From: Candidatus Tectimicrobiota bacterium
GTDB taxonomy: Bacteria > JACPSX01
Assembly: GCA_016193065.1 (NCBI GenBank)
Contig: JACPSX010000126.1
Span: forward strand, 1 to 14,793
Direction: 5' to 3'
DNA length: 14,793 nt
Part shown: positions 720 to 3,248 of the stretch, one piece after another
How the letters are laid out: each line of letters starts with the position of its first letter
How positions within the stretch are numbered: the first letter of the stretch is position 1
The notes under the pieces: generated by a model
Database searches by the model: none
What the model was told of the DNA's origin: nothing
The model's input: the letters and a program-made list of their open reading frames with translations, nothing else
Translations under genes and position numbers: made by a program

Positions 720-766
720 CTCGCAATGCGAGGCTACCCGACTCTCCCCGGCCAGCGCTCAGCCGG
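720..766 (-). terminator. Candidate weak terminator hairpins behind the D,D-carboxypeptidase gene
   Basis: Two short inverted repeats follow or overlap the dac stop codon. One is CCGGC/GCCGG (748-752 with 762-766, 9-nt loop). The other is CTCGC/GCGAG (720-724 with 728-732, 3-nt loop). Neither is followed by a proper U-tract on the minus strand (only CTCCATTTCC), so intrinsic termination is uncertain. Confidence 0.25.
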
Positions 767-1649
767 AAGACTCATCCCGTTTCTCAACTAAGTCAATCTT
801 CTGGAAACCCAAGTTGAGCAGACGAATTGCCGACCGTCGCCGGCTCTCCGGATTTGGAGCGCCCATCACCACCGCGATGACCCGCATATCCCCCCTGCGA
901 GCCGTGGCCGTGAGGTTGAACCCCGAGCGGCGCGTGAAGCCCGTCTTGAGCCCGTCGGCTCCCGGGTAGGTTCGAACCAGAGGATTCACGTTTGCGATGG
1001 TCCGTTTGCTCTTTCCTATGTGAACGGTGGCCGCTGGTTGTGAAGCCCATTTCAAAACCCGATCATGGCGCGCGAGTTGCCGTCCCAGGCGCGCCATATC
1101 GTAAGCCGTGCTGAGATCGTAGATCCGGCCGCGCTGGCGGGGCAGACCGCTAACCGTCCGAAAGACGGTTTCTTTCATTTTGAGCTGCGCAGCCCGCCGG
1201 TTCATAATACGGGTGAAATTTTGAGTCGTATCGCCTATATACTCGGCCACGGCCACCGCGGCGTCGTTAGCCGAGGTGACGATCATGGCCTTGAGCAGGT
1301 CCTGCAAAGAAATCATCTGGCGCGGCTGCAAGTGAAGCGCACGACCCCCTGTTTGGCTGGCATTTGGGGAAATCCTCACGCGGTCCTGGAGGGAGATCCC
1401 TCCTTCCTTGATCCTCTCCAGGGCAATGAGCATGACCATCATCTTGGTCATAGAAGCCGGGGGCCAGCGCTTGTGGGAATTCCTCTCATAGAGAATTTCC
1501 CCGCTGTTGGCGTCCAGAACCACGGCGGCTTTGTAAGCCGAGGGGACCGCCACTATGGAGCGGGAGGGTTTGTTCTGTTTCTTCGGAGGATGGGCGAAAG
1601 CTGTCGAAACGGAAAGGAAAACCATCAGGAACAAAAGCAGAGTTTTCAA
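759..1649 (-). CDS. D-alanyl-D-alanine carboxypeptidase (peptidase S11, low-molecular-mass penicillin-binding protein)
   Basis: This periplasmic serine peptidase trims the terminal D-Ala from peptidoglycan pentapeptides. With the TTG start at 1649 the product has 296 residues. It begins with a signal peptide (MKTLLLFLMVFLSVSTAFA, residues 1-19). The three S11 active-site motifs are present: SMTK at 66-69 (nucleophile Ser66, Lys69), SAN at 126-128 and KTG at 235-237. It ends soon after the transpeptidase-like domain, so the PBP5-type C-terminal beta domain and amphipathic membrane anchor are missing; it may be a soluble periplasmic form. The frame is open back to 1763, but TTG 1649 is preferred: GGAGG lies 6 nt before it, the signal peptide begins there, and a strong promoter (1723-1751) lies inside the would-be extension. 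The gene appears monocistronic. Family assignment is firm; the exact paralogue (DacA, DacC or DacF-like) is not. Confidence 0.93.
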   Translation of the reverse strand: MKTLLLFLMVFLSVSTAFAHPPKKQNKPSRSIVAVPSAYKAAVVLDANSGEILYERNSHKRWPPASMTKMMVMLIALERIKEGGISLQDRVRISPNASQTGGRALHLQPRQMISLQDLLKAMIVTSANDAAVAVAEYIGDTTQNFTRIMNRRAAQLKMKETVFRTVSGLPRQRGRIYDLSTAYDMARLGRQLARHDRVLKWASQPAATVHIGKSKRTIANVNPLVRTYPGADGLKTGFTRRSGFNLTATARRGDMRVIAVVMGAPNPESRRRSAIRLLNLGFQKIDLVEKRDESSG

Positions 1650-1652
1650 CAA

Positions 1653-1751: not shown

Positions 1752-1799
1752 CCATAGGATCATCCTTGCCCACCCCCAGTTTCTGCATGTACTATTGCC

Positions 1800-1860
1800 A
1801 TCGGGCCTGCCTTCCTGCCCCTCGGTGCTCTTTCTCCGAGGGGTTGCCCCCGCAGGCGAT
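1800..1860. other. Nested two-stage hairpin inside the inverted-repeat block
   Basis: CCCCTCGG (1818-1825) pairs perfectly with CCGAGGGG (1836-1843) across a 10-nt loop. Outside it, GCCTGC (1805-1810) pairs with GCAGGC (1852-1857) across an almost symmetric internal loop (7 and 8 nt). ATC (1800-1802) can add three pairs with GAT (1858-1860). No U-run follows on either strand, so a simple terminator is unlikely. Confidence 0.55.
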
Positions 1861-1862
1861 CT

Positions 1863-1922
1863 AAGCGGTTGCGAGGAAGAGAACTCTCAATCCGGCCGAC
1901 ACAACTCACATCGCAAGCGCTT
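1863..1922. other. Second hairpin, 12-bp stem with one mismatch
   Basis: AAGCGGTTGCGA (1863-1874) pairs with TCGCAAGCGCTT (1911-1922) at 11 of 12 positions, enclosing a 36-nt loop that itself contains GAGA/TCTC. It begins 2 nt after the previous hairpin ends. Confidence 0.5.
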
Positions 1923-1998
1923 CGTGAGCCCAAGGGGGCTCCCCCGAGGAGTGGATGAGAGAGGGTAATAATTTCTCAGTGACAAACTGGGAGTGGGC

Positions 1999-2016
1999 AA
2001 GGAGATTCATCTCCTT
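1999..2016. repeat. 18-bp palindrome across the treT stop codon
   Basis: AAGGAGAT, a 2-nt centre, then ATCTCCTT is a perfect 8-bp inverted repeat containing the TGA of treT (2009-2007) and overlapping the right arm of the neighbouring inverted repeat by 5 nt. It is A/T-rich and has no U-tract on the treT strand, so it is at best a weak terminator or mRNA 3'-end stabiliser. Confidence 0.4.
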
Positions 2017-3248
2017 TTCTCGCCGCGCAGCTCCAGCACCCCGCGTGTCTGACGCTGTACGACGGAGAGGATCAAGACCATCCAGCTCTTCAGGTATTGA
2101 GTGAGCAGGAAGTTGGTGCGTACGTATTCTCTGCCCGCCTCTCCAAACCTTTGGGCCAGATCTGGATTAGCCACGAGCTCCTTTATACGGAAGGCTGTGC
2201 CTTCCACGGTGTTGACCAGAAAGCCCGTGACTCCCTGGATGATCTGGTTGCGGATTCCCCCGACGGCGCCTCCGATGACCGATTTCCCCTTCCACATGGC
2301 CTCCGTAACGACCAGGCCAAATCCCTCGCGCAGGGATTTTTGCACCACCACCGATGCGGCTCTCTGTAGAGCGTTGATCTCCACGTGGCTGTCCGGCGAC
2401 AGGTTCAGGACGTGGATGTCCTGGTCTCCTTGGGCTCGTTCCAAGACGAGCTGCAAGACTTTTTCTCCCTCGGGGTCATCGGCAGCGGAACCTCCGGCCA
2501 GGACGAGCTGGCAGTCCACGCTTTTCTTGGCGATCTTGTACGCGTCAATGACCCCAAGGGGGTCTTTGAGAAAATCAAAGCGGGATACCTGAAGGACGAT
2601 GGGCCTGGACGGATCGATGGAAAATCGGCCCAGCACCTTTCGGATCTCCTCGGAACTCAAGTCCCGGTTCTTGTCGCTCAGGGGATCGATGGCAGGGGGG
2701 ATAATGAACTGAGGAATCAGAAGTTCCTTGGCATAGTCCACCAGGTGGAACACGGCCGCGTCACACCTCTCGACCATGGGCCGCAGGAGGCCCCAGACTC
2801 CGATCTGCGCCAGGGAAAGATCAATGTGGCAGCGCCAGATGGTGCGCCTCCTGCCTCGTCTTTGGGTCCTGATCAAAGGGAGAGGTTGAGGGTCATGGAG
2901 CACTACGAGGTCGGCCTCCTTGTCCACGAGGTCGCGGTTGGCCATGGCCTCGGCACTATACAGGCGGAACATGCTGTCTGTGACCAGATCGGTGGCGCCG
3001 TGAAGGGCGTTATGGATCGCCTTGGTTACTTCAAAGAAAGCGGGCTTTGCGGTCATCACGCTCCACTGGGCCTCGATTCCCAACTCGTTCATCATGGGGG
3101 TCAGGCGGGCAAGGATCTCGGCAACGCCGCCTCCGACCCGAGTGGAGTTGATGTGCTGCACTTTGAGTCCACGCAGGTGGCGGGCCAGGGCGCGAATCTC
3201 GGCGATTTCCTCGGAGCCCACCACGGACTCGTAGGCTTCAAGATGCAT
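2007..3248 (-). CDS. treT: Trehalose glycosyltransferring synthase (GT4)
   Basis: TreT reversibly makes trehalose from NDP-glucose (ADP-, UDP- or GDP-glucose) and free glucose in the cytoplasm. The 413-residue product matches the family length (about 410-415). Characteristic stretches are HINSTRVGGGVAEIL at 32-46, HDPQPLPL at 118-125, WRCHIDLS at 138-145, QVSRFDFLKDPLGVI at 220-234, INALQRAASVVVQKS at 291-305 and REGFGLVVTEAMWKG at 307-321, with the GT-B donor-binding Glu residues E308 and E316. The ATG at 3248 overlaps the upstream DUF5752-like gene by 11 bp and has GGGGGAAAGG about 7 nt upstream. It is the last gene of the sugar-transporter operon. In Thermococcus litoralis TreT is likewise encoded among trehalose/maltose ABC transporter genes, which supports a role in using imported trehalose. 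An uncharacterised GT4 of different specificity is possible but less likely. Confidence 0.88.
   Translation of the reverse strand: MHLEAYESVVGSEEIAEIRALARHLRGLKVQHINSTRVGGGVAEILARLTPMMNELGIEAQWSVMTAKPAFFEVTKAIHNALHGATDLVTDSMFRLYSAEAMANRDLVDKEADLVVLHDPQPLPLIRTQRRGRRRTIWRCHIDLSLAQIGVWGLLRPMVERCDAAVFHLVDYAKELLIPQFIIPPAIDPLSDKNRDLSSEEIRKVLGRFSIDPSRPIVLQVSRFDFLKDPLGVIDAYKIAKKSVDCQLVLAGGSAADDPEGEKVLQLVLERAQGDQDIHVLNLSPDSHVEINALQRAASVVVQKSLREGFGLVVTEAMWKGKSVIGGAVGGIRNQIIQGVTGFLVNTVEGTAFRIKELVANPDLAQRFGEAGREYVRTNFLLTQYLKSWMVLILSVVQRQTRGVLELRGEKRR

Follow-up and report, generated by a model that had tools for sequence, protein, structure and literature searches.

A dispersed family of gene-less hairpin elements with a preferred position upstream of predicted promoters in a Candidatus Tectimicrobiota genome

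Results

Hairpin-rich block between treT and dac

The window analyzed here is a 14,793-nucleotide stretch of contig JACPSX010000126.1 (assembly GCA_016193065.1). In it, a treT-like glycosyltransferase gene (2007-3248, minus strand; the name comes from an earlier sequence-only reading, not from a family scan) lies upstream of dac (759-1652, minus strand; probable start near 1652), which encodes a D-alanyl-D-alanine carboxypeptidase (Peptidase_S11). Relatives of treT are spread over different phyla. The predicted dac promoter, also on the minus strand, has a -35 box TTGACA (1746-1751) and a -10 box TAATAT (1723-1728) separated by a 17-bp spacer. Between the treT stop codon and this promoter, which is intact, lies a block dense in hairpins.

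The sequence-only reading had placed the block at 1763-2003, with 20-nt outer arms at 1763-1782 and 1984-2003 that are complementary at 19 of 20 positions (95%); the arms are exactly as described. The predicted folding energy of the 241-bp block is -110.2 kcal/mol on the plus strand (z = -4.43) and -111.7 kcal/mol on the minus strand (z = -4.00). On both strands the block was more stable than each of 200 dinucleotide shuffles. That reading had also recognized no known ncRNA class in the block, and we agree: a scan of the whole window against Rfam 15 gave no family at the gathering threshold, and at permissive thresholds the block and ten of its copies gave chance-level matches only, none of them credible.

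Dispersed copies in the host genome

The repetitive nature of the block is not visible from the window alone. The host assembly comprises 2.9 Mb in 294 contigs (C numbers below refer to these) and is 86% complete. A BLASTN search of the block against it gave 46 matches dispersed over many contigs. The copies, of 66 to 450 bp, carry no transposase gene; a dispersed, multicopy repeat with no coding capacity is what is expected of a MITE. An inner module that the window copy lacks (module C, described below) gave 35 matches of its own. The terminal repeat is common to dozens of copies, and many copies have decayed ends.

The block had no match in a DNA search of 59 other genomes, nor did a 26-base degenerate core pattern occur in 84,980 species genomes or the IMG/VR viral contigs. 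The host is the sole genome of its phylum among the genomes searched; as far as searched, the family is confined to it. Contigs C29, C61, C84, C117, C144, C152, and C276 start or stop inside family copies. Because many contig ends fall inside copies, the true copy number is probably higher than counted, and gaps in the assembly could hide an autonomous partner.

Terminal repeats and target duplications

Comparison of the copies gives CTTGCCCACYCCCAGTTT as the true terminal inverted repeat of the family, a nearly symmetrical sequence present at both ends, as in MITEs. Because this repeat occupies 1765-1782 and 1984-2001 in the window, the element runs from 1765 to 2001: the hairpin-rich block reported at 1763-2003 is real, but the element boundary lies two bases further in on each side. 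This short form of 237 bp is assigned to the minus strand so that its module B reads 5' to 3'. The terminal repeat on the treT side (1984-2001) reads CTTGCCCACTCCCAGTTT on the minus strand, and that on the dac side (1765-1782) reads CTTGCCCACCCCCAGTTT on the plus strand. The outermost two bases of each 20-nt arm are paired by chance and form part of the target duplication.

That duplication had been missed in the sequence-only reading, which saw no obvious one. The 10 bp at 2002-2011 (GAGATTCATC on the plus strand) match those at 1755-1764 (TAGGATCATC on the plus strand) at 7 of 10 positions; the first of these contains the treT stop codon (2007-2009), the treT reading frame ending at 2007. 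The window copy's duplication is degenerate. It is perfect (10/10) in two other copies, CGATCCGTCC at C14 and ATTTCTCGGT at C153, and reaches 9/10 in five copies and 8/10 in one (C201). As a control, mismatched pairs of flanks were compared, and only 3 of 650 had at least 7 identities, one of the three being the same element entered twice. The duplication is of constant length, 10 bp, again as in MITEs, and the ten bases have no obvious consensus. The perfect duplications show, on sequence grounds, recent insertion of some copies. A 66-bp copy at C15:3617-3682 consists of the two ends only and has a 9/10 duplication, and the two ends alone therefore seem to be enough for mobility. With its dispersed copies, terminal inverted repeats, and 10-bp target duplications, the block matches the first of the options raised before, a MITE with secondary structure.

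Modular interior and a covarying stem

Long copies of about 400 to 460 bp contain modules B (116 bp), C (about 200 bp), and D (about 150 bp; 38 matches), together with small G+C-rich palindromes, and module content varies widely among copies. In the window copy, module B, the family's most repeated part, is present (1835-1950, minus strand) and module C is absent; comparison with long copies identifies 1783-1834 (minus strand) as a linker plus a remnant of the right arm of C. The position of module D differs between copies: it is found within the loop of B or else behind B, in the opposite orientation relative to it.

The inner stem of B is formed by AAGCG-C-TTGCGA (5' arm, 1911-1922) and TCGCAA-C-CGCTT (3' arm, 1863-1874), both on the minus strand. 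Among 30 copies, 98.5% of the cells of this stem were paired. Five pairs had changed on both sides, accounting for 18 cells, and there was one single-sided standard change; the covariation score was reached by 0 of 500 shuffles. At least five stem sequences occur (AAGCG/CGCTT, AAGGG/CCCTT, GAGAG/CTCTC, GACAG/CTGTC, and AACGG/CCGTT). G-U was found in one cell of 330, and this near absence points to pairing maintained at the DNA level or restored by one arm copying the other. The covarying paired bases expected of a structured RNA are thus present in this stem, with pairing at the DNA level at least as likely an explanation. Of the four hairpins parsed earlier, that at 1863-1922 coincides with the covarying stem, and the family also supports pairing of 1934-1950 with 1835-1851; for the local hairpin at 1800-1860, no support was found in the family. 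The idea of a new structured RNA at a single syntenic site fares less well than the stem itself: although the pairing covaries, it is a mobile repeat that carries the structure, and no homologue was found outside the host genome.

Module D, with ends GAGACCGGG...CCCGGTCTC at L201, L204, L206, L213, L214, and other loci, occurs in both orientations relative to B; it is a repeat in its own right and may be an independent mobile hairpin. Variants of module B with the stem AAGGG/CCCTT at L032, L033, and L037 are without recognizable main-element terminal repeats, and this subfamily may move on its own. The outer arms of B (1944-1950 and 1835-1841 in the window) contain a two-by-two mismatch in an otherwise paired outer stem. 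The mismatch, kept in nearly all copies, consists of CCTCGG on both sides in the same reading direction. A copy at C61 without module B has a single CCTCGG at that place, as if B had been inserted with, or deleted between, a CCTCGG direct repeat.

Fixed distance to predicted promoters

The -35 box of the predicted dac promoter starts 13 bp outside the element end, a relationship absent from the sequence-only reading. Matches to TTGACA of at least 5/6 were scored outward from 49 element ends, and the offset of their start was recorded. Promoters were predicted from consensus alone in one fragmented genome, with statistics drawn from about 160 kb surrounding the copies; the orientation of some contig stretches is uncertain, which leaves local distances unaffected. 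A -35 box was found at offset 13 in 18 of the 49 ends, in most cases followed after 17 bp by a -10-like box. Offset 12 was found in three ends and offset 15 in one, and nearly every remaining offset in 0 to 2. Given the TTGACA background of 0.4% per position, the P value for offset 13 is about 6e-31. Decoys with the reversed terminal repeat gave 9 of 148, but this set was contaminated because the terminal repeat is nearly symmetrical; once the real ends were removed, the number was 1 of 119.

Similarity to TATAAT peaked at the 17-bp spacing (2.79 of 6), followed by 15 bp (2.66), with most other spacings at roughly 1.2 to 2.0. The target at C182, TTGCCA-17-TATAAT, has a strong -10 box but a weak -35 box. 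An open reading frame follows 28 of 29 promoter-side ends, starting 45 to 336 nt downstream. A Pfam scan of 20 of these downstream frames gave unrelated housekeeping and metabolic genes, including those for S20, FAD synthetase/flavokinase, GlnE, AnmK, DAHP synthase, and aconitase. Because the other copies lie at dozens of unrelated genes, there is no support for the earlier proposal that the block originated as a 3'-UTR regulator of treT or dac.

In seven of eight two-ended copies, a promoter lies on exactly one side; in the eighth, the end of the contig leaves one side with only 10 nt of flank. Among single-ended copies, a promoter is on the visible side in 22 of 34. The third or so without one would be expected if their promoter lay on the other side. 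With module B's strand as reference, the promoter adjoins the left end of C123, C201, and C246 and the right end of C14, C153, and the window copy; the orientation of insertion is therefore free. We rejected the possibility that TTGACA is part of the element: it lies outside the duplication, the 13 intervening bases vary, and it is found by either end. Near C95:3309-3850, the promoter TTGACA-17-TAATAG, which precedes an apparent tRNA gene with anticodon CAT, has a D-B-C composite upstream of it.

If TTGACA is numbered -35 to -30, the duplicated bases are at about -48 to -39. This is the promoter region contacted by the alpha subunit of RNA polymerase.

Candidate transposases

No transposase with the family's ends was found in the host assembly, which is 86% complete and broken at copies. 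The Mutator model PF00872 had no match in the host genome. The single match to the ISLre2 model, below the cutoff, was the ISKra4 gene described next; a p-MULT 3 partner may lie in an assembly gap.

One ISKra4-family gene, on C242, scores above the cutoff, and it is the sole one in the host genome. We rejected it as the partner: its ends are unrelated to the family's, being 21 bp long (GGGTGTGCGACAAATTTGTGG), and its duplication is 9 bp. Elsewhere in the genome no convincing copies of these ends were found. The insertion sequence itself (L196, C242:1950-3780) has perfect 21-bp terminal repeats and the 9-bp duplication CAGCCATCT. TTGCAT lies 16 bp outside one of its ends, the distance reported for such elements, with a poor -10 box. 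It adjoins a second transposase gene, C242:868-1581, which is the sole DDE_Tnp_1 match and was rejected as an IS4-type partner; it is IS1380-like by eye, and the family's ends are not found nearby.

Discussion

Origin of the family

The family is very probably one of non-autonomous transposons, a bacterial MITE, whose insertion is positioned by promoters, 13 bp upstream of the -35 box. A transposase supplied in trans, presumably of the DDE type, would recognize the 18-bp terminal repeats and insert the element into target DNA through joints staggered by 10 bp. A sigma70-type promoter would position the target complex, most likely through promoter-bound RNA polymerase rather than a DNA word, placing the joint 13 bp upstream of the -35 box and sparing the promoter core. 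The window copy would have landed at the treT stop codon, ahead of the dac promoter, and the insertion parted treT from that promoter with damage to neither. The interior is a mosaic of hairpin modules, with insertions into and losses from one another; of these modules the window copy retains B and has lost C. That the transposase is Mutator-like (p-MULT) is a tentative suggestion, with the chances somewhat against it. The exact 13-bp spacing hints that the element selects its insertion site by reading the transcription machinery.

The transposase might instead read TTGAC as a DNA word at a distance of about 13 bp. The link to promoters would then be a by-product of TTGACA serving as the -35 box, aided by selection against intragenic insertions. 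TTGAC is the sharpest conserved feature of the targets, the ten duplicated bases being without obvious consensus, yet similarity to TATAAT is also raised at the 17-bp spacing, and some targets, such as that at C182, have the strong box at -10 and the weak one at -35. We regard this explanation as rather unlikely, and we give a lower chance to the most far-reaching version of the preferred one. In that version, the family would be a new class of modular hairpin transposon in which hairpins insert into each other's loops, pairing is kept by arm copying, the target is found through contact with promoter-bound RNA polymerase immediately upstream of -35, and the transposase lineage is unrelated to the known promoter-targeting ones.

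A multicopy structured ncRNA or RNA-level regulator, acting as a terminator, processing site, or small RNA for its neighbors, would fit the very stable fold of both strands, the strong covariation of the B inner stem, and the intergenic position. It is improbable, since copies upstream of a promoter are outside the downstream gene's transcript, insertion in both orientations leaves no constant strand, module content varies freely, the scarcity of G-U is unlike usual RNA stems, and there is no Rfam match. Lower still we place a repeat maintained by the host, an insulator or a nucleoid or UP-region element, selected upstream of promoters and with a mobility that is ancient and now irrelevant. 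Selection of this kind would not fix a distance to one base while the intervening sequence varies completely; the perfect 10-bp duplications point to recent insertion, and the inner modules, and with them upstream spacing and content, vary widely. The exact placement upstream of housekeeping-gene promoters and the many copies with decayed ends are what such a repeat would predict.

The family's dozens of natural insertions define the preferred position to the base, and they can be used directly to ask whether promoter-bound RNA polymerase is what a transposase reads. As a very small cassette that goes in next to promoters and leaves them whole, the element could also serve as a genetic tool. 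A separate question, raised by the covarying hairpin modules, is why base pairing should be preserved in a mobile DNA element. In bacteria, only a few Mutator-type families have been described as targeting promoters in transposition; the present family adds a second geometry, 13 bp with a 10-bp stagger, in a lineage without a relative among the genomes searched.

Comparison with known systems

IS231 and other IS4-type elements are formally similar to the family, with terminal repeats that begin CATGCCC (the family's begin CTTGCCC) and duplications of 10 to 12 bp (the family's are 10 bp). To our knowledge, they do not target promoters, and no IS4-type transposase with matching ends was found in the host genome. 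Among bacterial MITEs, BOX has a modular make-up that resembles the family's. Correia, QMITE, BOX, and MITEAba12 (review PMC10969869) share with the family a short, gene-less, intergenic form with terminal repeats, duplications, and stable hairpins. The family is G+C rich rather than A+T rich. The passages of that review considered here cover MITEs that carry promoters or sit near genes, but none whose insertions keep a single set distance from a promoter of the host. Our literature search for promoter-targeted MITEs gave no precedent beyond PMC3942029.

Guerillot and colleagues (PMC3942029) reported that TnGBS and ISLre2 (p-MULT 3) insert 15 to 17 bases upstream of the -35 box, and they proposed contact with RNA polymerase. 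Like these elements, the family lies at a fixed distance upstream of -35 in sigma70/sigmaA promoters, makes a short duplication, and has terminal inverted repeats of similar length that start with C. Unlike them, it lies at 13 bp, duplicates 10 bp, and is found in both orientations, theirs being one; it is also small, with a hairpin interior and no transposase gene, whereas they are full IS or ICE elements. The 10-bp duplication sets it apart from p-MULT families generally, whose duplications are 8 or 9 bp (PMC3942029). In the ISKra4 group (p-MULT 4), several promoter-targeting members combine near-perfect terminal repeats with promoters on either side (PMC3942029), as the family does, but distance and duplication length differ, and the one ISKra4-type transposase gene of the host genome does not have matching ends. 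Because the distance (13) and duplication (10) depart from those of p-MULT elements and no transposase with the family's ends was found, we file the family not as a p-MULT member but as a MITE-like element with promoter-targeted insertion.
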